DNA of 64,000 nt from Hoeflea sp. (lineage in GTDB: Bacteria > Pseudomonadota > Alphaproteobacteria > Rhizobiales > Rhizobiaceae): positions 1 to 64,000 of the forward strand of contig NZ_NVXQ01000011.1 of the NCBI RefSeq assembly GCF_002733955.1. Reading direction: 5' to 3'. A model generated the notes under the pieces. The model searched no databases and was not told the DNA's origin. It saw only the letters and a list, made by a program, of their open reading frames with translations. A program made the position numbers and the translations under genes. Positions 283 through 13,365 of this stretch are shown one piece after another (within the stretch, counting starts at the first letter, position 1; every line of letters begins with the position of its first letter).

Positions 283-307
283 GGAACAAATGTGGCATTT
301 GTGCGTT
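283..307 (+). promoter_or_regulatory. EcfG-type stress promoter for the 427 and 663 genes
   Basis: GGAAC at 283-287 and CGTT at 304-307 are separated by exactly 16 bases, matching the known EcfG/RpoE2 promoter of alphaproteobacteria. It sits about 120 bases upstream of the start of the PLDc_N-like gene and points toward it. The same spacing recurs upstream of seven other genes in the first 12.4 kb. Confidence 0.8.
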
Positions 308-426
308 GATCTTGCGAAGGCGCCTGCGCGACTGCGGCGCCAGAATGGTGTCTGACGCCTTCTTCCGTGGCCTGTTTCGAACAGGTTTCGGGAGGTGGCG
401 TCAGGCCTCAAGTCAAGGAGCATAAA

Positions 427-621
427 ATGGGTATCGAAGTCGGCGGCCTGCTGGGCCTCATTCTTCTCATCGCCGTGGTATGGGCAATCTACAACATCTT
501 CCAGTCTTCCGCTTCTACCGGCGCCAAGGCCCTCTGGACCGTGCTGATCATCGTGCTGCCGGTTGTCGGCCTGATCATCTGGTTCCTGGCCGGTCCCAAG
601 GGCAACACCCGGACCGCCTGA
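427..621 (+). CDS. PLDc_N-like small membrane protein
   Basis: The 64-residue product has two hydrophobic stretches: residues about 5-25 (GLLGLILLIAVVWAIYNIF) and about 36-56 (WTVLIIVLPVVGLIIWFLAG), the second followed by a short charged tail (GPKGNTRTA). This is the pattern of phospholipase D-nuclease N-terminal-like domains, which occur as stand-alone inner-membrane proteins of unknown role. The ATG at 427 is preferred over an upstream in-frame ATG because AAGGAG lies at 415-420 with good spacing. The EcfG-type promoter at 283-307 lies upstream, so stress induction is inferred. No catalytic HKD motif is present and no enzymatic activity should be assumed. Confidence 0.8.
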   Translation: MGIEVGGLLGLILLIAVVWAIYNIFQSSASTGAKALWTVLIIVLPVVGLIIWFLAGPKGNTRTA

Positions 622-662
622 TACCGATCGTCTGTTTACCCGGGAGCTGAAGGAGTTCCACA

Positions 663-851
663 ATGTCGAGCATACACCCCACCATTGCAGGCCAGGTTCT
701 CGGCGTGAGCACGAATGCAAGCTACGAGATCAAGCCAGCCAACGACCAGCCCAGCCGCGAGAAGATGCTGGAAAAGCTGAAATCAGACGCCGCGGCACTG
801 CTGCGGAGGCTGGAAACAGCCTCGGCAGACATCGACCTCAGCAGCAAGTAG
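663..851 (+). CDS. Small hypothetical protein, 62 aa
   Basis: A 62-residue hydrophilic protein follows the PLDc_N-like gene by 41 bases, with AAGGAG at 650-655 before its ATG, so the two probably form one transcript ending at the hairpin at 897-928. The C-terminal half (EKMLEKLKSDAAALLRRLE) should form an amphipathic helix or short coiled coil. No family is recognised. By position it would be a member of the EcfG regulon, but this is inference only. Confidence 0.65.
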   Translation: MSSIHPTIAGQVLGVSTNASYEIKPANDQPSREKMLEKLKSDAAALLRRLETASADIDLSSK

Positions 852-896
852 GCGCCCTACGCGTCCATTACTGAACCACCATTGAAAACTGACGCA

Positions 897-928
897 CACG
901 CCGGGACCAAGCCTCCCGGCGTGTTTTT
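897..928 (+). terminator. Rho-independent terminator
   Basis: A 10-bp perfect stem (CACGCCGGGA at 897-906 with TCCCGGCGTG at 914-923) has a 7-base loop and is followed by five T. It closes the 427-851 unit. The stretch 852-1180 holds this terminator and the opposite-strand one at 1074-1102, and no credible gene. Confidence 0.85.
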
Positions 929-1073
929 GTGTTTACCAGCCGGGACAATTCATGTGGCACCTGAGGCCAAGGCACTGATGCCGCCCCTCCTGCCCAAAAC
1001 GAAGACGCGACCTCCGACGCAGGTGTTTCCTCTTCGTCAGAGCAACCCCAAGCTTGCATGCTGAAGTTACACC

Positions 1074-1102
1074 AAAAATGCCCGCCACAGCGTGACGGGC
1101 AT
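1074..1102 (-). terminator. Rho-independent terminator of nepR-ecfG
   Basis: On the minus strand ATGCCCG (1102-1096) pairs with CGGGCAT (1084-1078) and runs into a T tract. It lies about 80 bases past the ecfG stop codon and fits the end of the nepR-ecfG transcript. Confidence 0.75.
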
Positions 1103-1180
1103 GATCTGATTGTCGCTCTGTGCCGCAGGCGGACATCGCATTTCGGCTGTGATGTTTCGCCTGGTTCAGAAGCCCCGGTG

Positions 1181-1780
1181 CTACCGGCCCGGGAAGGCCT
1201 TGTTGACGAGTGGCCGCGAGGTCTCGTCGGGACCATAGTCGCTTTCGCCCTCGACGGTGAGGATTTCCTGCAGCTTCACGCGGGCCCGGTTGACCCGGCT
1301 CTTGATGGTGCCGACCGCCACGCCGGCGATCTCTGCCGCTTCCTCGTAGGAAAAGCCGGATGCGCCGATAAGGACGATAGCCTCACGCTGATCATCGGGA
1401 AGAGTGTCGAGCGCCGTCTTGAAATCGGCGAGATCGAGTTTGCCGTACTGCTCGGGATGGGTTGCGAGATTGCCCGCGAAGATACCGTCCGGATCCGGCA
1501 GCTCCCGGCCCTTGCGACGCATCTGGCTGTAAAATTCGTTGCGCAGGATGGTGAAAAGCCAGGCCCGCATGCTGGTGCCGGGCTGGAAGCTTTCCTGCTT
1601 GCCCCAGGCTTTCATGACGGTTTCCTGTACAAGATCGTCTGCCTTGTCATGGCGACGCGCCAGCGATACCGCAAAGGCTCGCAAGCTCGGCAGCACCGCC
1701 AGCATTTCCCGCTTGAAGGAAAACGCACTGGAACCCTCTGCCGGAATGGTCTGGGGAGCGCCCATGTCAGTTTGCCCCAT
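1181..1780 (-). CDS. ecfG: EcfG-family general stress response sigma factor
   Basis: ECF sigma factor (ECF15/EcfG, called RpoE2 or SigT in other species) that directs RNA polymerase to GGAAC-N16-CGTT promoters under stress. Region 2 is visible from LRAFAVSLARRHDKADDLVQ through WLFTILRNEFYSQMRRKGRE; region 4 from LPDDQREAIVLIGASGFSYE to VGTIKSRVNRARVKLQEIL. The ATG at 1780 gives 199 residues and overlaps the end of nepR by 14 bases, consistent with translational coupling; an upstream ATG at 1807 and another at 1765, just past the nepR stop, are possible alternatives. It is held inactive by NepR until phosphorylated PhyR captures NepR. The promoter upstream of nepR suggests autoregulation. Confidence 0.95.
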   Translation of the reverse strand: MGQTDMGAPQTIPAEGSSAFSFKREMLAVLPSLRAFAVSLARRHDKADDLVQETVMKAWGKQESFQPGTSMRAWLFTILRNEFYSQMRRKGRELPDPDGIFAGNLATHPEQYGKLDLADFKTALDTLPDDQREAIVLIGASGFSYEEAAEIAGVAVGTIKSRVNRARVKLQEILTVEGESDYGPDETSRPLVNKAFPGR

Positions 1781-1964
1781 TGGAGCCACCCGAGCGTTCC
1801 GCTTCATCGAGTTTCTCGAGCAGGCCCAGTAGGTGGTCGGGAATCGGCTCTTCCTCGACCGAGGTGTAAAACTGCTTCAGCTGTGAAGCGATCGCATCGG
1901 TAGAACCGAGATCAGTTTTCCGCCCTCCTCTGGAAGTTTCGCCTTTTGCTTCTCGATCAATCAT
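1767..1964 (-). CDS. nepR: NepR anti-sigma factor
   Basis: A 65-residue protein carrying the NepR core: IASQLKQFYTSVEEEPIPDH followed by LLGLLEKLDEAE, two helices that bind either EcfG or the sigma-like domain of PhyR. The first 20 residues are polar and probably disordered, as is usual. The ATG at 1964 is preceded by an AAGG Shine-Dalgarno-like stretch; a longer in-frame reading from 2078 would pass through the promoter region and is unlikely. The gene immediately precedes and overlaps ecfG and diverges from phyR, the standard order of this locus in rhizobial bacteria. Confidence 0.95.
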   Translation of the reverse strand: MIDREAKGETSRGGRKTDLGSTDAIASQLKQFYTSVEEEPIPDHLLGLLEKLDEAERSGGSNGAN

Positions 1965-2004
1965 GCCCTTGCCAGCCCTTTCAGAATGAACACATATTAC
2001 AGAG

Positions 2005-2029
2005 AATGCGCCACACCAAAAAAAGTTCC
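2005..2029 (-). promoter_or_regulatory. Near-consensus EcfG promoter of nepR-ecfG
   Basis: On the minus strand GGAAC (2029-2025) is followed after 16 bases by CATT (2008-2005), one mismatch from CGTT. It lies about 40 bases upstream of the nepR start and would give autoregulation of nepR-ecfG. The -35 element is arranged back to back with that of phyR. Confidence 0.65.
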
Positions 2030-2037
2030 AAGAGGCC

Positions 2038-2062
2038 GGAACTTTTTTTTCGTCCGTGCGTT
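2038..2062 (+). promoter_or_regulatory. EcfG promoter of phyR
   Basis: GGAAC at 2038-2042 and CGTT at 2059-2062 with a 16-base spacer, 44 bases upstream of the phyR ATG. Together with the minus-strand promoter it makes a symmetric stretch in which A-tract-GTTCC, 8 bases, GGAAC-T-tract form an inverted repeat (about 2018-2050). Confidence 0.85.
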
Positions 2063-2105
2063 TAGAGTTCGTTGCCACGTTGAGTGGACCACAAAGGGGT
2101 ACCTA

Positions 2106-2918
2106 ATGACGACACTGTCCATGCGCATCGCGCCGCACCTTCCTTACCTCCGCCGCTTCTCGCGCGCGGTTACCGGATCACAGACTTCCGGCGACGCTTA
2201 TGTAGCTGCGACGCTTGAGGCCTTGATTGCAGATCTGAGCATTTTTCCCAAGACCGCAGATGACCGCGTGTCTCTGTACCGGCTGTTCTCACAACTCTTT
2301 GACAGCCTTTCGGTTCCAATCCCTGAAAACCCGACACCCTTCAGTTGGGAAAAGCGCGCCGCCAACAATCTCGAGGCTGTCACGCCGCAGGCACGCAAGG
2401 CCTTTCTTCTCATTGCAGTGGAAGGCTTCAAGCCGAGCGAAGCCGCAGAAATTCTCGACGTTGATGAAGCCAGCTTCAACAAGCTGCTCGAAACCGCCTC
2501 GGTGGAAATTTCCAGGCAGGTGGCGACCGATATCATGATCATCGAAGACGAGCCGCTGATCGCCATGGATATCGAGGACATGGTCGAGACGCTGGGCCAC
2601 CGTGTCACCGGTGTGGCGCGCACCCACTCGGAAGCTGTCGAGCTGTACAAGAAGACCAAGCCGAAGATGGTTCTGGCCGACATTCAGCTCGCCGATGGCA
2701 GCTCGGGCATTGACGCCGTCAACGACATCCTGAAAGACGAGATGCTGCCGGTCATCTTCATCACCGCCTTCCCTGAGCGGTTGCTGACCGGTGAAAAGCC
2801 GGAGCCGGCCTTTCTCGTGACCAAGCCCTTCAACCCCGACATGGTGAAGGCGCTGATCAGCCAGGCACTGTTCTTCAACACTGCGGGCGAAAAACTGGAG
2901 ATGACAGGAACCAACTAG
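2106..2918 (+). CDS. phyR: PhyR anti-anti-sigma response regulator
   Basis: A 270-residue regulator with an N-terminal ECF sigma-like domain (residues about 1-135) and a C-terminal receiver domain (about 142-262). The receiver has the acidic pair in IIEDEP, the phospho-acceptor Asp192 in VLADIQLADG, the Thr in VIFITAFPE (the PhyR-type FATGUY signature) and the Lys in VTKPF. When phosphorylated, the sigma-like domain mimics EcfG and sequesters NepR. The start at ATG 2106 is chosen because AAGGGG lies just upstream and residues encoded earlier would overlap the promoter. The last codons overlap another EcfG promoter (2907-2931). Confidence 0.96.
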   Translation: MTTLSMRIAPHLPYLRRFSRAVTGSQTSGDAYVAATLEALIADLSIFPKTADDRVSLYRLFSQLFDSLSVPIPENPTPFSWEKRAANNLEAVTPQARKAFLLIAVEGFKPSEAAEILDVDEASFNKLLETASVEISRQVATDIMIIEDEPLIAMDIEDMVETLGHRVTGVARTHSEAVELYKKTKPKMVLADIQLADGSSGIDAVNDILKDEMLPVIFITAFPERLLTGEKPEPAFLVTKPFNPDMVKALISQALFFNTAGEKLEMTGTN

Positions 2919-2931
2919 GACAAGCGGCGTT
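2907..2931 (+). promoter_or_regulatory. EcfG promoter inside the end of phyR
   Basis: GGAAC at 2907-2911 and CGTT at 2928-2931 with a 16-base spacer. The -35 element lies within the last codons of phyR and the -10 is just past the stop. It is 33 bases before the DUF1328 start codon, giving that gene its own stress promoter in addition to read-through from phyR. Confidence 0.8.
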
Positions 2932-2963
2932 GGCATTGCATCGAATGAAAAAGGAGATTTTCG

Positions 2964-3128
2964 ATGCTGTACTACGCTCTCGTTTTCCTCGTTGTGGCCA
3001 TTATCGCCGGCGTGCTCGGCTTCGGCGGGATCGCCGGTGCTTCTGCCGGCATAGCCCAGGTTCTGTTCTTCCTGTTCCTGGCTTTCCTGGTCATCTCGCT
3101 GGTCATGAACTTTGTCCGAAAAGTATGA
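2964..3128 (+). CDS. DUF1328 small membrane protein
   Basis: A 54-residue, almost wholly hydrophobic protein beginning [20 protein letters not shown] and ending MNFVRKV, the typical sequence of the DUF1328 (YtjA-like) family. It has two transmembrane helices separated by a Gly/Ala-rich turn ([12 protein letters not shown]). AAGGAG lies just upstream of the ATG. Its function is unknown, but the family is often found among general stress genes, and here it has an EcfG-type promoter overlapping the end of phyR. Confidence 0.9.
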
Positions 3129-3157
3129 CGCAAATCAAGACCGGCGTATTGAGACTG

Positions 3158-3190
3158 ATTAAGGTGCCGGATGCCATCCGGCACCTTAAT
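3158..3190 (+). terminator. Long perfect hairpin after the DUF1328 gene
   Basis: ATTAAGGTGCCGGAT (3158-3172) pairs perfectly with its complement at 3176-3190 around a 3-base centre. The stem is 15 bp or more but is not followed by a T tract, so it may be a terminator, an attenuator or a protein-binding palindrome ahead of the histidine kinase gene. Confidence 0.55.
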
Positions 3191-3231
3191 GCGTAATTCG
3201 GATCTGAAAATCAGCGGGTGAATTGAATATC

Positions 3232-4248
3232 ATGACGATGACATCGGTTAACGAATCCGACCGACTGAGATTCGTGCTCGCAGGCTTGCGCAGCGCCGGG
3301 GTATCCATGATGTACCAGGATGCCGATCTGGTCATCCGCTTTGCCGCAAACCTCCCCGATTCCTGGCCGCTCGGGTCTCTGCTCGAAGGCGGTACCGACG
3401 AGGCGGTGTTCACGGCCCACCATGCCACCAAGGTCATTCACGCCAAGCGCCGGGTGATTGAATCCGGTGAACCGACCAAGCTTGAAATTCATCGAGACAC
3501 GGGCCACGAGCGGCACTGGTACATGCTCAACATCGAACCTGATGTGGACATGGAAGGCACCGTTATCGGCGTGTTCACGACCATTATCGACATTGACGAT
3601 CTCAAATATCGCGAAACCGTGCTCAAGACGCTGTTGCGCGAACTCAGCCACCGGTCGAAAAACCTCTTGGCCATCATCCAGTCTGTCGCCTCGCAAACCG
3701 CCCGCCACAGCCAGGGGCTGGAGGATTTCCTGCTTGCTTTCAGGAACCGGGTGCAATCGATGGCCCAGTCGCAGGATCTGGTCACCGCATCGGACTGGCG
3801 GGGCGCGGAGCTTTTTGCGCTGACCGAATCGCAATTGCACCCCTTGATGGGGGATCTGCCATCCGGCTTCAAAATGATCGGTGAAGACGCCTACCTGTTC
3901 CCGAACGCGGCCCTGCACCTGGGCCTCGCGCTTCATGAGCTGACGATTGATTCGCTCGCCAGAGGCGCCTTGGGCCCGGCCGGCGGCAAGATTGAGCTTT
4001 CCGCCGAAGAGCATCTCAACGATGAAGGCGCGTCGGAGCTGATCCTGACCTGGCGCGAAACCTTCGCGCGACGCCAGGAAGAGCCGGAAGCCGCCTCAAA
4101 ATCCAAATCCGGCTTTACCGGCACGGTGCTTGGACGCATCGTGCCGCAGGCGCTTGCAGCCCAGGTCGAGCACGTCATCGAGCCAGACCACATGATCTAC
4201 CAGCTGACCATTCCCGCCAGCCAGTACGAGCTGCACGCACCGGGCTGA
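3232..4248 (+). CDS. HWE/HisKA_2-type sensor histidine kinase (cytoplasmic)
   Basis: A 338-residue protein without membrane segments: an N-terminal PAS-like sensor region (about 10-125) precedes the dimerisation/phosphoacceptor helix LLRELSHRSKNLLAIIQSVA with His140, and an HWE-type ATPase domain (LALHELTIDSLARGAL, a W.E element in ILTWRET, and the GFTGTVLGRIV glycine loop). In the N-box the usual Asn of HELATNA is replaced by Asp240, so ATP/Mg binding may be altered. Its place beside phyR suggests a PhyK-like kinase that phosphorylates PhyR. The ATG at 3232 is used; TTG at 3223 is an alternative. Confidence 0.88.
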   Translation: MTMTSVNESDRLRFVLAGLRSAGVSMMYQDADLVIRFAANLPDSWPLGSLLEGGTDEAVFTAHHATKVIHAKRRVIESGEPTKLEIHRDTGHERHWYMLNIEPDVDMEGTVIGVFTTIIDIDDLKYRETVLKTLLRELSHRSKNLLAIIQSVASQTARHSQGLEDFLLAFRNRVQSMAQSQDLVTASDWRGAELFALTESQLHPLMGDLPSGFKMIGEDAYLFPNAALHLGLALHELTIDSLARGALGPAGGKIELSAEEHLNDEGASELILTWRETFARRQEEPEAASKSKSGFTGTVLGRIVPQALAAQVEHVIEPDHMIYQLTIPASQYELHAPG

Positions 4249-4427
4249 AACTCACGCCAAAGCAAGTTCAGCGCGGCAAGGTTGATGCGACGCCGATCAA
4301 GAAAACATCCGGCGCCCTGCTCTCGTGAAACTTCCGCTATTGCCCCGGCCCGGGGTTGCACCGCACTCCCCCAACCCAGACATCTTTTTGTTTTGGCGAA
4401 AGAATTTCTTAACCAGTTCTCCTGTGT

Positions 4428-4452
4428 GGAACTTCCGCGATGCCCTGACGTT
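4428..4452 (+). promoter_or_regulatory. EcfG promoter of the 4475 gene
   Basis: GGAAC at 4428-4432 and CGTT at 4449-4452 with a 16-base spacer, 23 bases upstream of the ATG at 4475. The preceding 4249-4427 shows no other feature. Confidence 0.85.
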
Positions 4453-4474
4453 GTTCTGCCAAAGGAGACACGTC

Positions 4475-4801
4475 ATGGAACACATTGCTGCATTCATGCT
4501 GTTGATCGCCTGCAGCGACGATTTGCAGGCCTGCAAGGAATACCCCGCCCCCGCCATCGGCTATGAGACGACCGAAGAGTGCCGCGCCGAGCTGATGCCC
4601 GCCATCCGTAGCATGGGCTCAGACCAGCCCAAAACATTTGGCAAGTGCGTGGAGATCGATCCGGCACTGCTTTATGAGGACGCGGAAATCGTCTGGGATG
4701 TCACGCAACAGGGCGGCATCGAGGTCACGCTCGAAGTGATCAATCCGCATATGGCGCTACAGTCTGTCGCCAGTGTCGAGGATCAGAAGAACGTCTACTA
4801 A
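4475..4801 (+). CDS. Conserved-looking hypothetical protein with four Cys
   Basis: A 108-residue protein starting MEHIAAFMLLIACSDDLQAC, with AAAGGAG at 4461-4467 before the ATG. The short hydrophobic N-terminus could be a weak signal or anchor, but no clear cleavage site is seen. Four cysteines occur early (in IACS, QACKE, EECRAE and GKCVE), which suggests a structural role such as disulfides or metal binding. The remainder is acidic. No family can be named. The EcfG promoter 23 bases upstream makes it a likely direct stress-response gene; the convergent DUF2254 gene ends 30 bases away. Confidence 0.75.
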   Translation: MEHIAAFMLLIACSDDLQACKEYPAPAIGYETTEECRAELMPAIRSMGSDQPKTFGKCVEIDPALLYEDAEIVWDVTQQGGIEVTLEVINPHMALQSVASVEDQKNVY

Positions 4802-4831
4802 CTCGGTGATTCAAGCCCGTTCCGGGAAAAC

Positions 4832-6079
4832 TCAATCGATCTCGAAATCGAGGCGTTTCCGCAGGAAATCGAGATCGGACGAGATCGGATCCCCGGCGCC
4901 GGCTGTCTCGAGCAAAGCTCTGGCGTGGTCGATAATGAGCTGCCTGGCATCGCTTCCGGCAATTGAATAGAGCGAATTGAGCACCACGGCGATATGATCG
5001 AGCATGAGAACATTGCCGCGGGCCGCCTGACGCAACGGATGTAGCGTCATATTGAACAGATCTTCCAATGACAGACCGGGAACCGCAAGGCGTGCCACGC
5101 CGTCCTGATCGCACCGGACATCCCCCCGCATCCCTTCAGAAACGGGCTTGACCAGTGCGGCGGCAATCCGGTCGGTGCAGGCCACGGCTGTAAAACTGTC
5201 ATTGACGCCTGGCGAAAGCGCCCGCAATGCAATTTCCAGCAGGATGCTGATTGAAAACCGGATGTCGTTGACCGCGCCCCGATAGGACTGAAGCACGATC
5301 GCTGCATGGACGGCCTCGGCCGCCAGTTCATCGTCTTCGCTGAACCCGGCCACGGCAAGCGTCTGGCCGGCCAGCACGAAATCACTGGGCGCAACCCGGA
5401 CAGCGATCGACGTGTCATGCTCGCGGGCAATCCGCAGCAGCTCCGCTTCATCCAGAACGGTGACATATCCCGACTGCTTCGCCCGCAAGGCCGTCTTGAG
5501 CTCGGATTCCTCAAGTTCGCCACTGCCTGCGCCGGTTTCAACGAGCAGCGCGTTGACCTGCTGCTCAAGCTGCTCGGAAATTTTCGCCACTTCCGCGTCG
5601 ATGGTCACGCTGCGCGAGACCGAATGCACAAAATGGATGACCTGGAGCACCGAGGCTGCAGCAAGCAGGAAAGCCATGAAGATGGAGAATTCGGGACGCA
5701 GCTCCGGGCCAGAGGCCCTCAGCACCGTCAATGCATAGAGAAATGTACCGCCGAGCAATCCGGCGGTGATCTGGTTGACCCGGTCACGGGAAAATCGCTG
5801 CAGCAGACGCGGCGCAATGTTGCCGGCCGCCAGCGTGAACACCACCAGCATGATCGAATAGACCATACTGAGCGTGGTGATTGCCGCCGTCGCGATCGTG
5901 GTCAGCAATGATCGCGCGGTCTCGGCTGAAATGGCGAGCCAGAACGGCAGCGGATCGCCAATGATGGTGAACTGGGTATCGACCCAGATCATCGGCAAGG
6001 CCAGGAGCCACAGACCGATGGCAATGGCGCCGGGCACGCCGAGCAGACCGTTGAGTGTCAGAAGCGGCCATAATTTCAT
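4832..6079 (-). CDS. DUF2254 family membrane protein
   Basis: A 415-residue protein of the DUF2254 type. The N-terminal third holds about four transmembrane segments (for example LNGLLGVPGAIAIGLWLLAL, then TIATAAITTLSMVYSIMLVV and two more near residues 105-150). Phrases typical of the family include APRLLQRFSRDRV and ALSPGVNDSFTAVACTDRI. The C-terminal 250 residues are soluble and presumably cytoplasmic. Function is unknown. The ATG at 6079 follows AAGGATGG. No EcfG motif was found upstream on this strand, so its regulation is unclear even though its neighbours are stress genes. Confidence 0.85.
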   Translation of the reverse strand: MKLWPLLTLNGLLGVPGAIAIGLWLLALPMIWVDTQFTIIGDPLPFWLAISAETARSLLTTIATAAITTLSMVYSIMLVVFTLAAGNIAPRLLQRFSRDRVNQITAGLLGGTFLYALTVLRASGPELRPEFSIFMAFLLAAASVLQVIHFVHSVSRSVTIDAEVAKISEQLEQQVNALLVETGAGSGELEESELKTALRAKQSGYVTVLDEAELLRIAREHDTSIAVRVAPSDFVLAGQTLAVAGFSEDDELAAEAVHAAIVLQSYRGAVNDIRFSISILLEIALRALSPGVNDSFTAVACTDRIAAALVKPVSEGMRGDVRCDQDGVARLAVPGLSLEDLFNMTLHPLRQAARGNVLMLDHIAVVLNSLYSIAGSDARQLIIDHARALLETAGAGDPISSDLDFLRKRLDFEID

Positions 6080-6288
6080 TGAACCATCCTTGGGCGCGAC
6101 CGGTCAGACAACCCGCACGAGAACATCGATCCCGGTACAAGGCGTTGCGAGCCTTCCACCGTAAAGAACTTGGTCAAATAGGCAATGAGCCGGCTGCAGT
6201 CCACGGGTATCTGCGCAGACTTTGCACATTCGTCCTTAAAGAGAAAAAGCCGAACCCGGTTCCTGACCGGTTCAACGGGTAAAAGGCA

Positions 6289-6313
6289 GGAACCAGGGCC
6301 TTTCTCACGCGTT
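6289..6313 (+). promoter_or_regulatory. EcfG promoter of the 6346 gene
   Basis: GGAAC at 6289-6293 and CGTT at 6310-6313 with a 16-base spacer, 33 bases before the ATG at 6346. Confidence 0.85.
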
Positions 6314-6345
6314 AACTCCAGCGAACCAAGAAAGGACCCTCCCCG

Positions 6346-6882
6346 ATGACAGATCTTCACAAGACACGACACGAACCGATCAGCCAGCTGTTCGACATCC
6401 TGGACGACACGCACGCGGTCATGACCGGTCTCGACAAAACCGGTCACTCGATGCAGCCGATGGCGCCTCAGGTGGACGAAGACCGGCGCGGCATCTGGTT
6501 TTATTCCAAGCGCGATTCCGACATGGGCGCAGCCATCGCAAAGCATCCGGCCAGCCGCGCGCGCATCTGCCTGATCAGCCCGGATCATGACTACCACGCC
6601 TGCATTTCAGGCACGATGAGCGAGGAATCCGACAAGTCGCTGATCGACAAGTTCTGGTCCGCGCCGGTGGCTGCCTGGTTCGAAGACGGCAAGGACGACG
6701 CAAATCTCGTCCTGTTGCGTTTCGACGCGTCGGAGGCAGACATCTGGGCTTCGTCGGGCAGCGCTATCCGCTTCGCCTGGGAAATTGCCAAGGCAAATGT
6801 GACCGATGAACAGCCGGATGTCGGCGAAAAGACCCACATCGTGTTCCCGGCAACGGCACCGGCGCAGCAGGCCGCACAATAA
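6346..6882 (+). CDS. PNPOx-fold general stress protein
   Basis: A 178-residue protein resembling the pyridoxamine 5'-phosphate oxidase-like general stress proteins (GSP26 family), flavin-binding split-barrel proteins. Visible landmarks are the N-terminal helix HEPISQLFDILDDTHAVMTG, the strand GIWFYSKRDSDMGAAIAKHP, CLISPDHDYHACISGTMS and the W-rich helix LIDKFWSAPVAAWFEDGKDD. The last 20 residues are an Ala/Pro/Gln tail. No substrate is predictable. It is preceded by an EcfG promoter and a good AAAGGA site, and is followed by the separately promoted CsbD gene. Confidence 0.88.
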   Translation: MTDLHKTRHEPISQLFDILDDTHAVMTGLDKTGHSMQPMAPQVDEDRRGIWFYSKRDSDMGAAIAKHPASRARICLISPDHDYHACISGTMSEESDKSLIDKFWSAPVAAWFEDGKDDANLVLLRFDASEADIWASSGSAIRFAWEIAKANVTDEQPDVGEKTHIVFPATAPAQQAAQ

Positions 6883-6905
6883 CGCCGAAAGATGCGGAAA
6901 GAGCG

Positions 6906-6930
6906 GGAACCAAGTCGGCGCTCTGACGTT
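6906..6930 (+). promoter_or_regulatory. EcfG promoter of the CsbD gene
   Basis: GGAAC at 6906-6910 and CGTT at 6927-6930 with a 16-base spacer, 66 bases before the CsbD start. Confidence 0.85.
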
Positions 6931-6995
6931 GAATAGACAGGCCGGCAGCGAGACCCGCAAAACGGCCAAAAGCTTTGAAACCAAGGAGAATTGAT

Positions 6996-7193
6996 ATGAA
7001 CTGGGATGTTATTGAAGGCAAGTGGAACGAATACAAGGGCAAGGCTCAGCAGCAGTGGGGCGAGCTGACCAATGACGACCTGGACAAGGTCGAAGGTCGC
7101 CGCGACGAACTGGCCGGCAAGATCCAGGCCCGTTACGGCAAGACCCGCGACGAAGCAGAGCGCGAAATCGACGACTGGCTCAACAAGAACTGA
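6996..7193 (+). CDS. CsbD family stress protein
   Basis: A 65-residue, highly charged protein with the hallmark CsbD start ([20 protein letters not shown]) and the second repeat-like helix [20 protein letters not shown]. It is predicted to be a small helical cytosolic protein. CsbD proteins are strongly induced in general stress responses but have no established biochemical role. The ATG at 6996 follows AAGGAG; a slightly earlier ATG at 6975 would overlap the ribosome-binding site. It is transcribed from the EcfG promoter at 6906-6930 and ended by the terminator at 7207-7239. Confidence 0.95.
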
Positions 7194-7206
7194 TTTCCCC
7201 TTATGA

Positions 7207-7239
7207 AAGGCTCGGCAATATTGTTGCCGGGCCTTTTTT
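7207..7239 (+). terminator. Rho-independent terminator of the CsbD gene
   Basis: AAGG(C/T)CGGCAA pairs with TTGCCGGGCCTT around a short loop, with one mismatch, and is followed by six T. It separates the CsbD gene from the regulator that starts at 7255. Confidence 0.85.
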
Positions 7240-7254
7240 GTCGAAAGTGAATGC

Positions 7255-8037
7255 ATGCCCGGCAAGAACCAGAGTGCTATCCCCAAGGATGCAAGTCCGC
7301 TGGTACGCCGGCTTGGAAGATCCGTCCTATTGACCTCGGAAGAGGTCGACTACCTGGAGACCATGCAGGTCAACCAGGCTTCGGTCCTCAAGGGCGACGA
7401 ATTCATCCATGACGGCGAGCCGTTGCGCGTGACCTTTCTGGTGCGGCGCGGCTGGGTGATCAGATACAGAATCACGCCGGCGGGGCGCCGCCTGATCATA
7501 GGCGTCTCGCTGCCGGGCGATTTCATCGGACTACATGTCAATTTCAGCCATTCATCGATTTTTTCGGCAGCAGCTCTTACCAACAGTTCACTGGCCCTTA
7601 TCGAACCGGTGCGGATTCTCGAAATCCACCGGCGTTTTCCGGTTCTGGCTTCTGGCCTCGACTGGATGTCGATGCGGCATGCCAACATCCTGGCGGAACA
7701 CAAGGTCTCTCTCGGCGCGCGGACGGCGGCGCAGCGCATCCTGCATTTTCTCCTCGAGTTGTGGATAAGGCTCGAACAGGTCGGGCTTGCGAGCGAAGAC
7801 GGCTTTGATCTCGAACTTACCCAGGAGCAGATTGGCGATTGCATGGGGCTCTCCACGGTGCACGTCAATCGTTCGCTCAGCCGGTTGAGCAAGGAGAAGA
7901 TGCTAAAAATCGACAGAGGTTTCGTGACCTTCCCCGACATTTCCAGATCAATTGATTTTGCTGATTTCGACGAGCGTTTCCTGATGGAATTTGCCACCAA
8001 GGCAGACTGCCTGGGGGCGAACAAACGGATCTCCTGA
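7255..8037 (+). CDS. Crp/Fnr family transcriptional regulator
   Basis: A 260-residue regulator with a cyclic-nucleotide-binding-like beta barrel (about 25-140; LRVTFLVRRGWVIRYRITPA and SLPGDFIGLHVNF are typical) and a C-terminal winged helix-turn-helix (LTQEQIGDCMGLSTVHVNRS followed by LSRLSKEKML). No N-terminal cysteine cluster is present, so it is not an iron-sulfur Fnr. The effector is unknown. It starts 15 bases past the CsbD terminator with no EcfG motif nearby, so it probably has another promoter or is read through. The position between stress genes suggests a regulatory link but does not prove one. Confidence 0.9.
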   Translation: MPGKNQSAIPKDASPLVRRLGRSVLLTSEEVDYLETMQVNQASVLKGDEFIHDGEPLRVTFLVRRGWVIRYRITPAGRRLIIGVSLPGDFIGLHVNFSHSSIFSAAALTNSSLALIEPVRILEIHRRFPVLASGLDWMSMRHANILAEHKVSLGARTAAQRILHFLLELWIRLEQVGLASEDGFDLELTQEQIGDCMGLSTVHVNRSLSRLSKEKMLKIDRGFVTFPDISRSIDFADFDERFLMEFATKADCLGANKRIS

Positions 8038-8242
8038 TTCCTGGCGGGTGATTAACCTGTGTAATAGACACGCCTCCGCCACCCCCTATTTTCGGCGGAC
8101 CCAAACGGTTTGTGCCATAATCCGAACAGCGCCGGCCGCTAACGGGTACAACCGAGTGCTCCGGCACGGTTCAGGAAATCTTGCATCAGCCGCGCAAACA
8201 GACTAGCGGATATATCTCGCACCGCATTGAAAGAGCCCCGAT

Positions 8243-9904
8243 TTGTTTTACCGATTCCAGCCGGTTCTGGTCTTTATAGTGGTGGCTGTCGTTGGCATGC
8301 TGACGGCAGTTGCGTCCTGGTACACGATCGATCAGGCAAACCGGTTCACCTTCATCGGCATAGCCGATGACGCAGTACAGCGGATCGGTGACCGCATCGA
8401 AAACCACATGCTGCTGATCAAGTCGGTCGAGGCCCATTTCCAGGCGACAGGCGAAGTGCCAAGCGTGGAAGCGTTCAAGACCTATGTGAGCTACCTGCAA
8501 AAGACTGAACAGTTCAACGGGGTTCAGGGGCTGGGATTTGCCCGTTACGTGCAAACCGGACCGCAGTCGGATCAGGCCATCTCGGCTGAACTGGACCGTA
8601 ATTACGGTCTGTCGCGTTCGTCCTGGCCCGAAACGAGCGAGAACTACCGCACTCCCATCGTCATGCTCGAGCCGGAAACCGAGGCCAACCGGCGGGCTCT
8701 GGGCTTTGACATGTACTCCGAACCGGTGCGGCGGGCGGCAATTCTCGCTGCTCTGTCCGAACAGCGCCTGCGTGCGTCGGGCACGGTGGAACTGGTCCAG
8801 GAAGACTTTCAGGATCCGAAGGCCGGGTTCCTGATGTACACGCCTTTTTTCGCTCCCAATTCCGGCCGCCCGCTCGGCTTCGTCTATGCCCCGTTTCGCA
8901 TTCCCGATCTGTTTGAATCCGCGCTCAACCGGTCACCGACCTTGCCGATCCATGTAACGGCCTGGGACGGAGAGCCGGCGGATGCAAGCCTGATTTACCA
9001 ATCGGTGAACAGGCCGAGCCAGCGCATGGATGCGCCGTCCCCGTCGCAAAGGTCCATTGAAGTGGCCGGGCGCACCTGGACGGTGGAGTTCCAGGCCTCG
9101 GAAGTCTACCGGCCGCCTGTGGACCAGACCCGGACCCTGATGCTGGCAATTGCCAGCCTACTTCTGGCCGGCGCGCTCGCTGCATCGTCGCGCGCCCAGC
9201 AACGCACCATCGAGGTTGGCGAAGCGCTGCGGCAACAATCCGAACGGGCCTTGTCCGACCGTGAATTCCTGCTTCAGGAAATGAAGCACCGGATCAAGAA
9301 CATGATCGCCCGGGTGATGGCGATGTCACGGCAAACGGCGCGGTCGGCTGATGACCTGAACGACTTCACGCAATCATTCACTGCAAGACTGCAGGCGATG
9401 GCCGCCTCCCAGGATCTGCTGGCACGCACGGCCTGGCAAAGCGCTGACCTCAAGACACTCCTGGAGCAGGAACTCAAGCAGCTGTTTGGCGGCGATATGG
9501 ATGAAAGCAATCTCAAGGGTCCGGCCATCGAACTCAATGAGGTTGCGGCCCAGGCCTTCGGGCTGGCTTTTCACGAGCTGGCGACCAATGCGCTCAAATA
9601 CGGCTCCGCGCTGTCAGACACGGGAAAGCTCGACATCTGGTGGCGAATTGAGCCCGACGAGAAAAGACGGGATTTTCTGGTCTTCTCCTGGCGGGAGCGC
9701 AGCGAAACCCCGCTTGACGAGCAAAATTCAAACGCACTTGCCCGCAAGGGCGGGTTTGGAACCAAGCTGCTCGACGCGACAATGCGGGTGGAGCTTGGCG
9801 GATCTCTGCACATTGTTCCAGACGAGTACGGGATCGATGTCACCATTACCGTGCCGCATGAGCGGGTGAAGGCAAATCACCGGCATTCCGGTGCGGACAA
9901 ATAG
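8243..9904 (+). CDS. CHASE-domain HWE sensor histidine kinase
   Basis: A 553-residue membrane kinase: TM1 about 7-28 (VLVFIVVAVVGMLTAVASWY), an extracytoplasmic CHASE-type sensor domain about 40-260 (it includes QGLGFARYV and the GFLMYTPFFAPNSGRPLGFV region), TM2 about 296-315, then the phosphoacceptor helix with EMKHRIKNMIARVMAMSRQT (His349) and an HWE/HisKA_2 ATPase domain with the canonical N-box FHELATNALKYGSAL, FSWRERSE and GGFGTKLLDATM. It starts at TTG 8243; no ATG occurs in frame before residue 19. It is a good candidate for a PhyR kinase that senses a periplasmic signal. The preceding 205-base gap shows no EcfG motif. Confidence 0.9.
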   Translation: MFYRFQPVLVFIVVAVVGMLTAVASWYTIDQANRFTFIGIADDAVQRIGDRIENHMLLIKSVEAHFQATGEVPSVEAFKTYVSYLQKTEQFNGVQGLGFARYVQTGPQSDQAISAELDRNYGLSRSSWPETSENYRTPIVMLEPETEANRRALGFDMYSEPVRRAAILAALSEQRLRASGTVELVQEDFQDPKAGFLMYTPFFAPNSGRPLGFVYAPFRIPDLFESALNRSPTLPIHVTAWDGEPADASLIYQSVNRPSQRMDAPSPSQRSIEVAGRTWTVEFQASEVYRPPVDQTRTLMLAIASLLLAGALAASSRAQQRTIEVGEALRQQSERALSDREFLLQEMKHRIKNMIARVMAMSRQTARSADDLNDFTQSFTARLQAMAASQDLLARTAWQSADLKTLLEQELKQLFGGDMDESNLKGPAIELNEVAAQAFGLAFHELATNALKYGSALSDTGKLDIWWRIEPDEKRRDFLVFSWRERSETPLDEQNSNALARKGGFGTKLLDATMRVELGGSLHIVPDEYGIDVTITVPHERVKANHRHSGADK

Positions 9905-10001
9905 GCCGCGTTCCGTTTCTTTCCACCTCTCGCGAGCGCCCTTTCTGATGCGCCGGTCCTTGCGCCGGGCCTTGCGCCGCCCGGTTTAAGCCTCAAGGCT
10001 C

Positions 10002-10026
10002 GGAACGATCGGCCCCGCGCTGCATT
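10002..10026 (+). promoter_or_regulatory. Possible EcfG promoter (CATT variant) of the permease gene
   Basis: GGAAC at 10002-10006 followed after 16 bases by CATT at 10023-10026. It has the same -10 variant as the nepR promoter. The start codon is 26 bases downstream, and a small inverted repeat (CCCCTTTT and AAAGGGG) lies in the leader. Confidence 0.5.
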
Positions 10027-10052
10027 GTCCCCTTTTACAAAGGGGCATTTGC

Positions 10053-11168
10053 ATGAAGCGTCTTTATCGGATGGAGCCGCCGGTGGTGCGCATTGCAGCC
10101 AAATCCGGCATGGATGCCGGGCTGCAATCACTGGCGCGTATCGCCATCATCGTAACCGGCTTGCTGGCAACGCTTGCAGCGCTCGACCAGGCGCAGCCTT
10201 TTCTGGCCCCTGTCAGTCTTGCCGTGATCACCGGTCTGATGGCCTCCCCTGTTTCCTCCGCACTGGAACGGGTGGTTCCGGCGTCGCTGGCCGCGGCTAC
10301 CGTCGTCATCCTGTTTCTTGCGCTCATCGGGTCTGCCGTGGCTCTGTTTTCAATGCCGCTTTCGATCTGGACCGACCGGCTGCCGGAAATCTGGCATGAG
10401 ATGCAGCGCCATCTGATCAACTGGCGCACCGTCTTCGACACGCTCGGCGGAGTACAGGAACAGATCCGCACCATTGCCGGCGGCAAAGCCGAGATGACCG
10501 TCGATATTGCCGAGAATTCCGCAGTCGAAGAGATTGCGACACTGGCGCCCGCGCTGATGGCGCAGATCGTTCTGTTTCTGGCAAGCCTCTACTTCTTTCT
10601 CGCCACGCGCCACTCCATCCGCACCAGCGTGCTGTCCCTTTGTTTCACCCGCCACGCACGATTGAGAACCGCCAGGGTGTTCAGGGACGCGGAATGGTTC
10701 GTCTCGCGCTATCTGCTGTCGATCACCGTGATCAATGCCGGTCTTGGCCTGGCGACGACCACTGTGATGTGGTTGCTTGGCGTCCCGCAGCCCTATCTCT
10801 GGGGCATGCTGGCCTTCTGCCTCAACTATATTGTCTATATCGGACCGGCCGTCATGGCGGTGATCCTGCTTGGCGTGGGCCTGGCGACCTGGGACAGCCC
10901 GCCAGCGATCTTCCTGCCTGTCGGCGCCTATCTGACGCTCAACATGATCGAGGCGCAATTCATCACGCCGCAGGTGATCGGGCGCTCCGTCACGCTCAAT
11001 CCGTTCTTCGTGTTTCTGTCGCTGGCATTCTGGATCTGGCTCTGGGGACCAGTGGGCGGCCTGCTTGCTGTGCCCTTCCTGCTGGTCGGGTACGCGGTGA
11101 TCAGGAACGCCTTCCCGGTCCAGACCGGCGCGACCCATACGGCGTCCCATTCCATCAAAAAAAAATGA
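10053..11168 (+). CDS. AI-2E family transporter (PerM/TqsA-like permease)
   Basis: A 371-residue polytopic membrane protein of the AI-2E/PerM family, with about eight transmembrane segments. Family landmarks: paired N-terminal helices (IAIIVTGLLATLAALDQAQP and FLAPVSLAVITGLM), a soluble insertion about 110-165, AEWFVSRYLLSITVINAGLG, the GVPQPYLWGMLAFCLNYIVY motif, NMIEAQFITPQVIGRSVTLN and LWGPVGGLLAVPFLL. Members export or exchange small molecules or ions; the substrate here is not predictable and autoinducer-2 should not be assumed. It ends only a few bases before the next EcfG promoter. Confidence 0.88.
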   Translation: MKRLYRMEPPVVRIAAKSGMDAGLQSLARIAIIVTGLLATLAALDQAQPFLAPVSLAVITGLMASPVSSALERVVPASLAAATVVILFLALIGSAVALFSMPLSIWTDRLPEIWHEMQRHLINWRTVFDTLGGVQEQIRTIAGGKAEMTVDIAENSAVEEIATLAPALMAQIVLFLASLYFFLATRHSIRTSVLSLCFTRHARLRTARVFRDAEWFVSRYLLSITVINAGLGLATTTVMWLLGVPQPYLWGMLAFCLNYIVYIGPAVMAVILLGVGLATWDSPPAIFLPVGAYLTLNMIEAQFITPQVIGRSVTLNPFFVFLSLAFWIWLWGPVGGLLAVPFLLVGYAVIRNAFPVQTGATHTASHSIKKK

Positions 11169-11176
11169 ACCCGGCT

Positions 11177-11201
11177 GGAACCATGATCGGGTGAGGACGT
11201 T
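11177..11201 (+). promoter_or_regulatory. EcfG promoter of the PRC-barrel gene
   Basis: GGAAC at 11177-11181 and CGTT at 11198-11201 with a 16-base spacer, beginning 9 bases after the permease stop codon and about 90 bases before the ATG at 11293. Confidence 0.85.
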
Positions 11202-11292
11202 AATCCACCGTAACCATCGCCGAGCCGGACCAGCGCTCTCACACACTCGATCCAGCCCGGCGTGCACCTTTCGATGCAAAAAGGAAATTACC

Positions 11293-12210
11293 ATGTTCAA
11301 GACACTTTTGGCCAGCACCGCACTCGCCACACTCGTTACCACGTCGGCGATGGCGGCTAGCACCACCACCACAGCAACGACCGACGCCACCGCAACCGGT
11401 TCTGAAACCGTTGTGACAACCGACGCCAATGCAAGCATGCACCAGGGCGACAACCTCGCCAGCAACCTGATCGGTTCGGCTGTCTACGGTTCGGCCGCTG
11501 AAGATGCTGAAATGATCGGCGACATCAACGACATCGTGATCTCGCCTGAAGGCGACGTTGCCTCGATCATCGTCGGCGTCGGCGGCTTTCTCGGCATCGG
11601 CGAAAAGGACGTCGCCGTTGACTATGAAACCATCGAATGGGCTGACCGCGATGGCGAACGTTGGCTGGTTGCCAACATGACCCGCGAGCAGCTTGAAGCA
11701 GCCCCTGCGTTTGACCGCAACGCGCTGTACAACGAAGCCCGTTCCACTGACGAAGACATGAACACCACCGGTCAGATGGCAGCAGAAGACCGCACTGCCG
11801 AGAACATCGAAGACGGCGACAGCGCTGTCGAGATGGCTGAAGAAAAGACCATGGGCATTGATCGCTCGTCGATGACGCAGGTGACGACGGATGACCTTAC
11901 CGCCGAAAACCTGATCGGCCGCACGGTCTACAGCTCCACTGATGAAAACATCGGTGAAGTCGGCGACGTCCTTCTGACTGCTGACAACAAGGTCGAAGGC
12001 TTCATCCTCGACGTTGGCGGTTTCCTGGGCATGGGCGAAAAAGAAGTCGCCGTTTCGCCTGAAAACCTCGACATCCGCGCTGATGCCGATGGCGAACTGA
12101 CCATCTTCACGCCCTTCACCGAAGAGCAGCTGGAAGCTCAGAAGGAATATTCGGAAGAAAACTGGGAAGCTGAACGCGACAGCATGATCCTGGTTGTTCC
12201 GGCTGGCTAA
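11293..12210 (+). CDS. Secreted protein with two PRC-barrel domains
   Basis: A 305-residue protein with a signal peptide (MFKTLLASTALATLVTTSAM, cleavage near AMA-A), a Thr-rich linker, and two PRC-barrel-like domains that resemble each other: residues about 57-125 (ENLIG-type motif SNLIGSAVYG, then VGVGGFLGIGEKDVAV) and about 205-275 (ENLIGRTVYS, VGGFLGMGEKEVAV). An acidic linker of about 70 residues separates them. The protein should be periplasmic. The ATG at 11293 follows AAGGAAAT; upstream in-frame residues overlap the promoter region. Function unknown; stress control is inferred from the EcfG promoter. Confidence 0.9.
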   Translation: MFKTLLASTALATLVTTSAMAASTTTTATTDATATGSETVVTTDANASMHQGDNLASNLIGSAVYGSAAEDAEMIGDINDIVISPEGDVASIIVGVGGFLGIGEKDVAVDYETIEWADRDGERWLVANMTREQLEAAPAFDRNALYNEARSTDEDMNTTGQMAAEDRTAENIEDGDSAVEMAEEKTMGIDRSSMTQVTTDDLTAENLIGRTVYSSTDENIGEVGDVLLTADNKVEGFILDVGGFLGMGEKEVAVSPENLDIRADADGELTIFTPFTEEQLEAQKEYSEENWEAERDSMILVVPAG

Positions 12211-12237
12211 TCTGCCGGATCCGAACCCCAGCCCTGA

Positions 12238-12269
12238 GGCCGCCGGTTTATTCCGGCGGCCTTTTTTTT
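12238..12269 (+). terminator. Rho-independent terminator of the PRC-barrel gene
   Basis: GGCCGCCGG (12238-12246) pairs with CCGGCGGCC (12253-12261) around a 6-base loop and is followed by eight T. Confidence 0.92.
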
Positions 12270-12290
12270 GTGATTCAGACGGCACAGAAC

Positions 12291-12315
12291 GGAACCATCG
12301 CTGCACAGGGGCGTT
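12291..12315 (+). promoter_or_regulatory. EcfG promoter of the DUF883 operon
   Basis: GGAAC at 12291-12295 and CGTT at 12312-12315 with a 16-base spacer, 33 bases upstream of the ATG at 12348. Confidence 0.85.
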
Positions 12316-12347: not shown

Positions 12348-12683
12348 ATGGCTGCTACCAGCAAATCCACACGTTCGAACGGCAATGCAAACCCGATCGT
12401 TGACGACATCGCCGAACGCGCCGCGCGTATCCGCGAAGACCTTGCAGCACTGAGCGAGGCAATTGCCGGCGCCGGTTCGGTCAAGACGGGCATTGCGCGC
12501 GAAGCGGCTGAACACAAGATCGACGAACTGCTCAAGAACGGCGAGCAGGTTGTGGCCGACCTGTCCAAGCAATATGCCCGCGCCGAACAGCAGGTCAGCA
12601 CCACGGTTCGGGAAAAACCGCTCCAGTCGCTCGGTGTCGCAGTGGCAGCAGGCTTCCTGGCCGCGATTATCCTGCGCCGGTAA
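12348..12683 (+). CDS. DUF883 (YqjD/ElaB-like) membrane-anchored protein
   Basis: A 111-residue protein built as a long charged helix or coiled coil (about 18-85: IVDDIAERAARIREDLAALS and following) ending in one C-terminal membrane anchor (QSLGVAVAAGFLAAIILRR). This is the architecture of ElaB/YqjD/YgaM proteins, which in Escherichia coli are induced in stationary phase and bind ribosomes at the membrane. The next gene begins 6 bases after its stop and encodes a holin-like membrane protein, the same pairing as yqjD-yqjE. Promoter: EcfG motif at 12291-12315. Confidence 0.88.
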   Translation: MAATSKSTRSNGNANPIVDDIAERAARIREDLAALSEAIAGAGSVKTGIAREAAEHKIDELLKNGEQVVADLSKQYARAEQQVSTTVREKPLQSLGVAVAAGFLAAIILRR

Positions 12684-12689
12684 TTGCTG

Positions 12690-13103
12690 ATGTCCCCGGT
12701 CCTTCCCCTTACCTCGCTTGTCTCGTCCTATGCCGGGTCAAAGGCCCGGCAATGGCGCCGTGACGCGATCCTGTTCGGTTTCATGTGCCTCATGGCGCTG
12801 ATGGCGAGCGGGGCTCTGTTTGCCGCCTTTGCGCTGCTCATGGCCGAGACCTATGGCGCGATCTACGGCTTGCTCGCCGCAGCGGGACTGGCCCTGGTTC
12901 TGGCCCTGCTGGCCATGGGCATCCGTGCGCTGCTGCGCCGCAGAGCCCGTCGCCGGATGAATGTCGCTATGGCAGGCCGGGCCTCGGCACTCGCAGTGAC
13001 CTCGGCCTCCACACTGATCGCGCAGAACAAGTCGACGGCCATCATCGCCGGACTGGTGGTTGGCGCCCTCGCCGGCACCATGATGCGCTCGAACAACGAT
13101 TGA
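12690..13103 (+). CDS. Putative holin-X/YqjE-like membrane protein
   Basis: A 137-residue protein with two adjacent transmembrane helices (about 30-53, FMCLMALMASGALFAAFALL, and about 58-80, GLLAAAGLALVLALLAMGI), an Arg-rich cytoplasmic stretch (RALLRRRARRRMN), and a third hydrophobic segment near the C-terminus (AIIAGLVVGALAGTMM). Size and layout resemble the putative actinobacterial holin-X/YqjE group, often found beside DUF883 genes. The ATG at 12690 is chosen over TTG 12684. It is translationally close-coupled to the DUF883 gene and probably shares its EcfG promoter. Confidence 0.75.
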   Translation: MSPVLPLTSLVSSYAGSKARQWRRDAILFGFMCLMALMASGALFAAFALLMAETYGAIYGLLAAAGLALVLALLAMGIRALLRRRARRRMNVAMAGRASALAVTSASTLIAQNKSTAIIAGLVVGALAGTMMRSNND

Positions 13104-13158: not shown

Positions 13159-13365
13159 ATGACCAAGCCAACAGATCCAATCAACGTCCGCCAAGCGCGC
13201 CAGGGAAAACCAGTGCTGGTGATCCTGGCCGTCAGCATGGTTCTTGCCGTGATCGCCGCCTGGGTGCTGTGGGGCGCCATTGCCGAGGATACCGAGGACG
13301 GCATGGCGGAGGGAGCGTCGATCTCGCTTCAGCAATCTCCGTCATACGCACCCGTAACTGCTTGA
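13159..13365 (+). CDS. Small single-pass membrane protein, 68 aa
   Basis: The 68-residue product has a positively charged N-terminus (RQARQGKP), one transmembrane helix (about 19-40, VLVILAVSMVLAVIAAWVLW) and an acidic tail (AEDTEDGMAEG), suggesting an inner-membrane protein with its C-terminus outside. CAGGAG precedes the ATG. It begins 55 bases after the holin-like gene and may be the third gene of that stress operon. No family is recognised. Confidence 0.65.
   Translation: MTKPTDPINVRQARQGKPVLVILAVSMVLAVIAAWVLWGAIAEDTEDGMAEGASISLQQSPSYAPVTA

Follow-up and report, generated by a model that had tools for sequence, protein, structure and literature searches.

A dense block of EcfG-type promoters around the probable core locus of the general stress response in a Hoeflea species

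Introduction

The PhyR-NepR-EcfG circuit is a known system, and GGAAC-N16-CGTT is published as the EcfG1 motif of Rhizobium etli (PMC3892343). Elsewhere, the EcfG motif is written with a spacer of 16 or 17 bases, and the nepR and phyR units are both described as usually EcfG-driven (PMC4814048), as is the case for rsiA1 and rsiB1 of Sinorhizobium meliloti (PMC3616915). Here, we describe a block of genes around ecfG, nepR, and phyR in a Hoeflea species (assembly GCF_002733955.1). The block lies at the start of a 64,000-nucleotide stretch (hereafter the window), which comprises the first 64,000 of the 64,489 bases of contig C1 (NZ_NVXQ01000011.1) in a genome of 4,861,307 bp and 40 contigs. A preliminary description of the window, which had rightly treated the circuit as known, drew attention to the EcfG-type promoters packed around these genes.

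The block is very probably the core locus of the general stress response in a Hoeflea species, extended by a number of its own probable targets to form an island. This assignment draws on the rarity of the sites, the concentration of 8 of the 82 genomic sites in one place, their promoter position (43 of 82, versus 1 of 30 for a reversed control), and the conservation of boxes and neighborhood, as well as on the single EcfG and PhyR of the genome, the stress genes among the distant targets, and the sameness of the R. etli motif. The locus encodes an EcfG-type sigma factor beside NepR, a PhyR divergent from nepR-ecfG, and a kinase of the HWE/HisKA_2 type; by sequence, both units carry EcfG-type promoters, which are exact for phyR and deviate by one mismatch (CATT) for nepR-ecfG. 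By analogy with studied relatives, HWE-type kinases would phosphorylate PhyR under stress, and PhyR~P would bind NepR, thereby freeing EcfG to lead RNA polymerase to GGAAC-N16-C(G/A)TT promoters. Ten such promoters in the block would act back on the regulators themselves (phyR and nepR-ecfG) and drive the genes for a PLDc_N protein, a DUF1328 protein, the unnamed 108-aa protein p108, a pyridoxamine 5'-phosphate oxidase-like (PNPOx-like) protein, a CsbD-like protein, an AI-2E permease, and a PRC-barrel protein, together with the run from the DUF883-like gene to dps, presumably as one transcript; about 35 further candidate sites lie in promoter position elsewhere in the genome.

Exact Sites and Their Clustering

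A pattern scan of the window located eight exact sites in the block, all on the plus strand and exactly where the preliminary description had placed them, each with a 16-base spacer. The distances of 23 to 120 bases that it had given to the next gene start correspond to 22 to 119 bp when measured from the end of the site (119, 43, 32, 22, 32, 65, 91, and 32 bp, in site order). Within the first 14.5 kb, a spacer of 16 yields eight matches, and the other lengths between 10 and 23 yield none or one each; spacers of 15 and 17 are absent from the whole window. Permuted half-sites in the same 14.5 kb gave a mean of 0.135 matches and a maximum of 2, and the genome-wide rate predicts 0.22 sites per 13 kb; the earlier chance estimate of about 0.1 per 13 kb was thus of the right order. 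The whole window contains nine exact sites, compared with a mean of 0.57 and a maximum of 3 in shuffled windows. The ninth, at 62906, was rejected as a promoter, as it falls inside a called gene on the opposite strand.

Genome-wide, the motif is far from evenly spread, even density being what the preliminary description had named as a finding that would speak against its proposal: the densest 13 kb of the genome is this block, with 8 of the 82 exact sites, and the runner-up holds 3. If even density is assumed, the Poisson probability of at least eight sites is 1e-10 per 13-kb window and approximately 4e-8 over 374 windows. When promoter position was defined as outside called genes with a same-strand start within 300 bp, 43 of the 82 sites qualified; 30 lie inside called genes, a further 4 also fall within a gene though close to a start, and 5 occupy intergenic regions without a start. 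The reversed control has 77 genomic sites; of the 30 that were classified by position, one was promoter-positioned.

When one mismatch was allowed, 24 matches (9 of them exact) were obtained in the window versus 17 expected, and most of these matches are therefore attributable to chance. Two sites with a CATT -10 box, however, have conservation behind them, and the promoter count of the block is therefore better put at ten, namely eight CGTT and two CATT sites. The earlier list of promoters holds for the eight exact sites, whereas those preceding nepR-ecfG and the AI-2E permease gene had been missed. Some genes of the block do not appear to be EcfG targets: in the window, no exact site lies directly upstream of the genes for the DUF2254 protein, the Crp-type regulator, or either kinase.

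Conservation in Relatives

The comparison covered 80 PhyR loci (1,580,358 bases; individual loci are given L numbers), all of them related, so that counts are not independent. Among named matches, the PhyR of Hoeflea halophila is closest (96% identity), followed by that of H. alexandrii (93%). The 80 loci contain 311 exact sites, as opposed to 28 for the reversed pattern, 11 for a spacer of 15, and 10 for the boxes in swapped order. A spacer of 17 gave 64 matches, and because this exceeds the 28 of the reversed pattern, it is likely a real variant in the relatives.

For each gene, only relatives with a covered gene start were counted. An exact site precedes phyR in 69 of 80 relatives, nepR in 1 of 35, and the AI-2E permease gene in 3 of 8 (remaining genes in Table 1), while permuted motifs averaged at most 0.04 loci per gene. 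Exact sites were found before none of the orthologues of ecfG (9), the first kinase (17), the Crp-type regulator (13), the CHASE-HWE kinase (9), the DUF2254 protein (3), the 62-, 139-, and 68-aa genes (1, 6, and 5), and dps (4). Two Rhizobium loci left out of the first-kinase count (L046 and L062) have a site 147-150 bp before the mapped start of that gene. Ahead of the AI-2E permease gene, seven Hoeflea relatives carry CGTT (three), CATT with a spacer of 16 (three), or CATT with a spacer of 17 (one).

The preliminary description had proposed a comparison of synteny, and genes and sites do recur in relatives, partly after rearrangement. In L031 to L037, the genes present follow the order of the window (L033 is cut short); the PLDc_N gene was found only in L031-L033, the PNPOx-like gene only in L031 and L032, and the DUF2254 gene only in L031, L032, and L037. 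An alternative is that the clustered genes are mere neighbors, passively inherited as an old neighborhood that has no regulatory meaning beyond the promoter of each gene. We consider the chances of this to be evenly balanced. The loci compared are related, and the surroundings of phyR vary greatly, with about three exact sites in most Rhizobium loci versus eight in the Hoeflea window; yet L038 and the Ciceribacter-like loci are rearranged in order and strand, and in many of them the p108, DUF1328, CsbD, and DUF883 genes nevertheless remain near phyR together with their sites.

Separately, many Rhizobium loci (e.g., L046, L062, and L081) were seen to carry an exact site just past the end of phyR (about +804 to +819, counted from its start), at a place where the loci shown had no matched DUF1328 relative.

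Several observations weigh against the assignment of the block as a core locus enlarged by its own targets. The bare pattern is not enriched in the genome (82 sites versus 77 for the reversed control). The exact site before the PRC-barrel gene is absent in three of seven Hoeflea relatives and is kept in 5 of 9 relatives overall, the exact p108 site is missing from L031, the nearest relative, and L036 has CATT instead of CGTT before phyR. Because the block starts at the contig edge, its left border is unseen; at the H. halophila locus, the 8 kb to the left of the PLDc_N site contain no exact site. Finally, gene starts come from a simple caller that had been trained on long frames. Since the reversed control occurs nearly as often as the bare pattern and 30 of the 82 sites lie inside genes, the argument rests on position, clustering, and conservation rather than on the motif by itself.

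The nepR-phyR Intergenic Region

In the window, the region between nepR and phyR reads AAAAAAAGTTCC-AAGAGGCC-GGAACTTTTTTTT. Divergence of nepR from phyR within 800 bp was found in 61 of the 80 loci, and GTTCC-N5-9-GGAAC, that is, back-to-back -35 boxes 5-9 bp apart (8 bp in the window), in 60 of these 61, the exception being L075. Among these 60 loci, which form 24 groups when thinned at 75% identity, the nepR -10 box is CATT in 57 and the phyR -10 box is CGTT, with a spacer of 16 or 17, in 57; in the Hoeflea relatives, the nepR box is CATT in 8 of 8. A run of at least five T follows GGAAC on both sides in 49, and both boxes of the window are followed by T runs. The pattern weakens outside close kin: class-wide, 17 PhyR loci include 13 divergent ones, of which 5 show the pair. 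All eight loci from genomes chosen for p108 relatives carry it; L207-L210 and L214 have CGTT in both -10 boxes, and L212 and L213 have their CATT box on the side of phyR. The strict palindrome occurs in 11 of 385 class genomes; 7 of the 12 loci fetched carry phyR, the window's own included.

In vitro work on Sphingopyxis showed that a change from CGTT to CATT lowers transcription and that the reverse change raises it (PMC7083833). In the excerpts of the open-licence literature searched, no description was found of either the back-to-back -35 spacing or the CATT/CGTT difference. A tentative explanation, which we regard as possible but doubtful, is that nepR-ecfG and phyR share one mirrored unit. 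As the -35 boxes are 8 bp apart, two EcfG polymerases presumably cannot sit there at once, so that the units would compete; CATT versus CGTT would then bias firing toward phyR and set the NepR:PhyR ratio. The recurrence of paired boxes, unequal -10 boxes, and T runs in most of the 60 loci (24 groups) speaks for such a unit, as does the measured weakness of CATT. On the other side, we infer mutual exclusion from the spacing alone, the short intergenic region restricts where the boxes can lie, the pair is present in a minority of divergent loci class-wide, and the seven loci just named with CGTT on both sides or CATT on the phyR side depart from the proposed bias. A bolder version, rather unlikely in our view, would hold for Hoeflea and Rhizobium: one bidirectional EcfG unit, by its mirrored -35 boxes with T runs, would exclude double occupancy, its conserved one-base -10 difference would fix the ratio of anti-sigma to anti-anti-sigma factor produced at each activation and so set the trigger point of the stress response, and gene-plus-promoter cassettes, including that of p108, would be kept near this switch in spite of rearrangements since proximity to the gene for the sigma factor matters.

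EcfG and Its Targets Elsewhere in the Genome

The assignment of the block as a core stress response locus also accords with the rest of the genome, which encodes one PhyR and one EcfG. That the sites are chance occurrences, or belong to another extracytoplasmic function (ECF) sigma factor, is highly improbable: the genomic count does equal that of the reversed control and there are three other ECF-like matches, but permutation gave at most 2 sites versus 8, spacer and position are fixed, the sites are conserved across relatives, and none of the remaining factors exceeds 31% identity to EcfG.

Outside the block, there are 35 other promoter-positioned targets, of which 30 were run against Pfam (24 matched, 6 unmatched). 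Their products include a long catalase, an Fe/Mn superoxide dismutase, a trehalose phosphatase, an MscS channel, and a DUF892 protein; further targets encode a ferritin-like DUF2383 protein, two DJ-1/PfpI proteins, a DUF421 protein, a PRC-barrel protein, PQQ-type and aldehyde dehydrogenases, and a dCache HisKA_2 kinase. Such contents (catalase, superoxide dismutase, trehalose phosphatase, and the like) are usual for a general stress regulon. A promoter-positioned EcfG site precedes the dCache HisKA_2 kinase gene (L156:1409-2947) by 113 bp, which makes the gene product a possible self-amplifying input kinase.

Three further observations concern other contigs. On contig C24, two tandem paralogues, 78 and 76 residues long and each with a signal-like N-terminus (L136:2796-3411; sites at 9557 and 9947 of the contig), have their own exact sites, 28 and 36 bp upstream, indicating that gene and promoter were duplicated together. 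On C40, the same 25-bp match occurs twice inside called genes (69-93 and 37787-37811), which points to a repeated element. Contig C16 carries three sites close to its end, and a continuation of the block there was considered but is not supported; the C16 stretch (L129) gave no DNA match to L031 or L032 at E 1e-10.

Genes of the Block

The genes and sites of the block are listed in Table 1. As the preliminary description had proposed, the regulators comprise NepR and PhyR beside an EcfG-type sigma factor, together with two kinases of the HWE type. Its "DUF883 pair," by contrast, reduces to one DUF883-like protein, the partner having no Pfam match.

Table 1. Features of the block in window coordinates; fractions give the relatives in which an exact site precedes the gene.
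Feature	Position	Strand	Remarks
Exact EcfG-type site	283..307	+	119 bp before PLDc_N gene; 3/3 relatives
PLDc_N small membrane protein	427..621	+	Pfam PF13396
62-aa ORF	663..851	+	Weak coding score; relative only in L031; no Pfam match
ecfG, ECF15-type sigma factor	1181..1807	-	Start could be 1765; sole EcfG in genome
nepR, anti-sigma factor	1767..1964	-	Overlaps ecfG; Pfam NepR 3.6e-13
EcfG-type site, -10 CATT	2005..2029	-	Before nepR-ecfG
Exact EcfG-type site	2038..2062	+	Before phyR; -35 box 8 bp from nepR -35 box, mirrored
phyR, sigma-like domains and receiver	2106..2918	+	Domain search
Exact EcfG-type site	2907..2931	+	Overlaps phyR stop, 32 bp before DUF1328; 28/29 relatives
DUF1328 small membrane protein	2964..3128	+	Domain search
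PAS-HWE kinase-like protein (first kinase)	3232..4248	+	PAS_4 and HWE by Pfam; N-box Asn is Asp
Exact EcfG-type site	4428..4452	+	Before p108; 16/19 relatives, absent in L031
p108, unnamed 108-aa protein	4475..4801	+	Four invariant Cys
DUF2254 membrane protein	4832..6079	-	No site
Exact EcfG-type site	6289..6313	+	Before PNPOx-like gene; 2/2 relatives
PNPOx-like protein	6346..6882	+	Domain search
Exact EcfG-type site	6906..6930	+	Before csbD; 25/27 relatives
CsbD-like protein	6996..7193	+	Domain search
Crp-type regulator	7255..8037	+	No site
CHASE-HWE histidine kinase (second kinase)	8243..9904	+	No site
EcfG-type site, -10 CATT	10002..10026	+	Before AI-2E permease
AI-2E family permease	10053..11168	+	Domain search
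Exact EcfG-type site	11177..11201	+	Before PRC-barrel gene; 5/9 relatives
Protein with two PRC-barrel domains	11293..12210	+	Domain search
Intrinsic-terminator-like hairpin	12236..12263	+	After PRC gene; terminator scan
Exact EcfG-type site	12291..12315	+	Before DUF883-like gene; 38/47 relatives
DUF883-like protein	12348..12683	+	26 bits, below Pfam cut-off of 27
139-aa protein	12684..13103	+	No Pfam match
68-aa protein	13159..13365	+	No Pfam match
Dps-type ferritin-like protein	13406..13921	+	Last gene of run; no own site

Two further structures were observed. A near-perfect inverted repeat without a T run (AAGGTGCCGGATG / CATCCGGCACCTT) lies between the DUF1328 and first kinase genes (3160-3190), and a similar repeat occurs in L031. 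At 7195-7255, a terminator-like hairpin with a T run was recognized by eye 3' of csbD, with similar structures in Hoeflea relatives; the terminator scan did not list this hairpin, which would separate csbD from the Crp-type gene. A small RNA candidate in the block, an Rfam suhB/mmgR match at 12192-12276, was rejected as weak (31.5 bits versus a cut-off of 41); it overlaps the hairpin downstream of the PRC-barrel gene and has no counterpart in L031, L032, or L034 (E 0.05).

p108, which has no Pfam or NCBIfam match and whose profile retrieved nothing meaningful from PDB sequences (best E 0.19), is nonetheless judged to be a real protein from its codon changes: synonymous divergence (dS, 1.2-1.6) is well above nonsynonymous divergence (dN, 0.09-0.37) in comparisons with three Hoeflea relatives, while synonymous sites are saturated in a fourth. 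An alignment of 23 sequences shows invariant M1, A5, A6, C13, C20, P24, Y30, C36, G56, C58, and I72. Counting its own, 10 of the 297 genomes of the order encode p108. In seven of the nine other copies, GGAAC-N16/17-CGTT begins 47-65 bp before the gene; another has a TGTT form at -93, and the last has none. Six of the nine lie within 6 kb of a PhyR match, and no such match was obtained in genome G043. In G040 and G145, p108 is over 1.4 Mb from PhyR by contig coordinates, with the site still kept. In L122, from a 1.5-Mb genome of the same family, phyR and the p108 relative are 1.6 kb apart, and only the TGTT form at -93 is present. We consider p108 the best new lead on the outputs of the EcfG circuit.

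The two kinases differ at the N-box. An alignment of the first shows HRSKN at its H-box, and thus the HRxxN motif of the DHp domain is present; at the N-box, Asp replaces Asn in the window and in L031, L032, L035, L036, and L037, whereas L034, L038, and nine further aligned relatives have Asn there. The second kinase combines CHASE and HWE domains and keeps the N-box Asn. In place, the first kinase corresponds to TcrY of the R. etli locus (PMC3892343). PhyT (PhyP) of Sphingomonas melonis Fr1 is likewise presented as a kinase-like protein encoded at the phyR locus, with HRxxN and a changed ATPase domain, and the first kinase resembles it in place and in HRxxN. PhyT is, however, membrane-anchored with a periplasmic domain (PMC5898713), whereas the Hoeflea protein has a PAS domain by Pfam; the latter may be either a genuine kinase or a phosphotransferase of the PhyT type.

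Comparison with Known Systems

Among described systems, that of R. etli (EcfG1-NepR-PhyR-TcrY) is alike in its motif and in its layout, with nepR-ecfG divergent from phyR, which is followed by a kinase gene. There too a target lies next to the regulators, as the gene for the EcfG-dependent noncoding RNA ReC64 adjoins the locus (PMC3892343); an Rfam search of the Hoeflea block found no ReC64-like RNA. In S. meliloti, the RpoE2-RsiA1-RsiB1 system is similar in that rsiA1 and rsiB1 have mapped, RpoE2-dependent starts, and SMc01508 and SMc01509, which are near by locus number, are listed as RpoE2-activated. It differs in that the available passages describe neither a block of such size nor the spacing of a promoter pair (PMC3616915; PMC6180224). 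Sphingopyxis granuli TFA shares GGAAC-N16-CGTT together with CATT and TGTT variants of the -10 box, CATT being weaker in vitro, but its nepR2-ecfG1 unit is divergent from ecfG2 rather than phyR2 (PMC7083833). The genus Hoeflea is not mentioned in the excerpts returned as best search matches.

Against this background, the locus brings together predicted EcfG outputs of Hoeflea in a set that is compact and conserved. It raises the questions of why a probably weaker -10 box is conserved on the nepR-ecfG unit but not on the opposing phyR unit, and of what role is played by p108, a conserved protein whose gene has retained an EcfG-type promoter in members of more than one family. Of most interest for bench work are p108 and the pair of mirrored, unequal promoters. 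The system itself is known, and the dense Hoeflea block is a strong new member of it.

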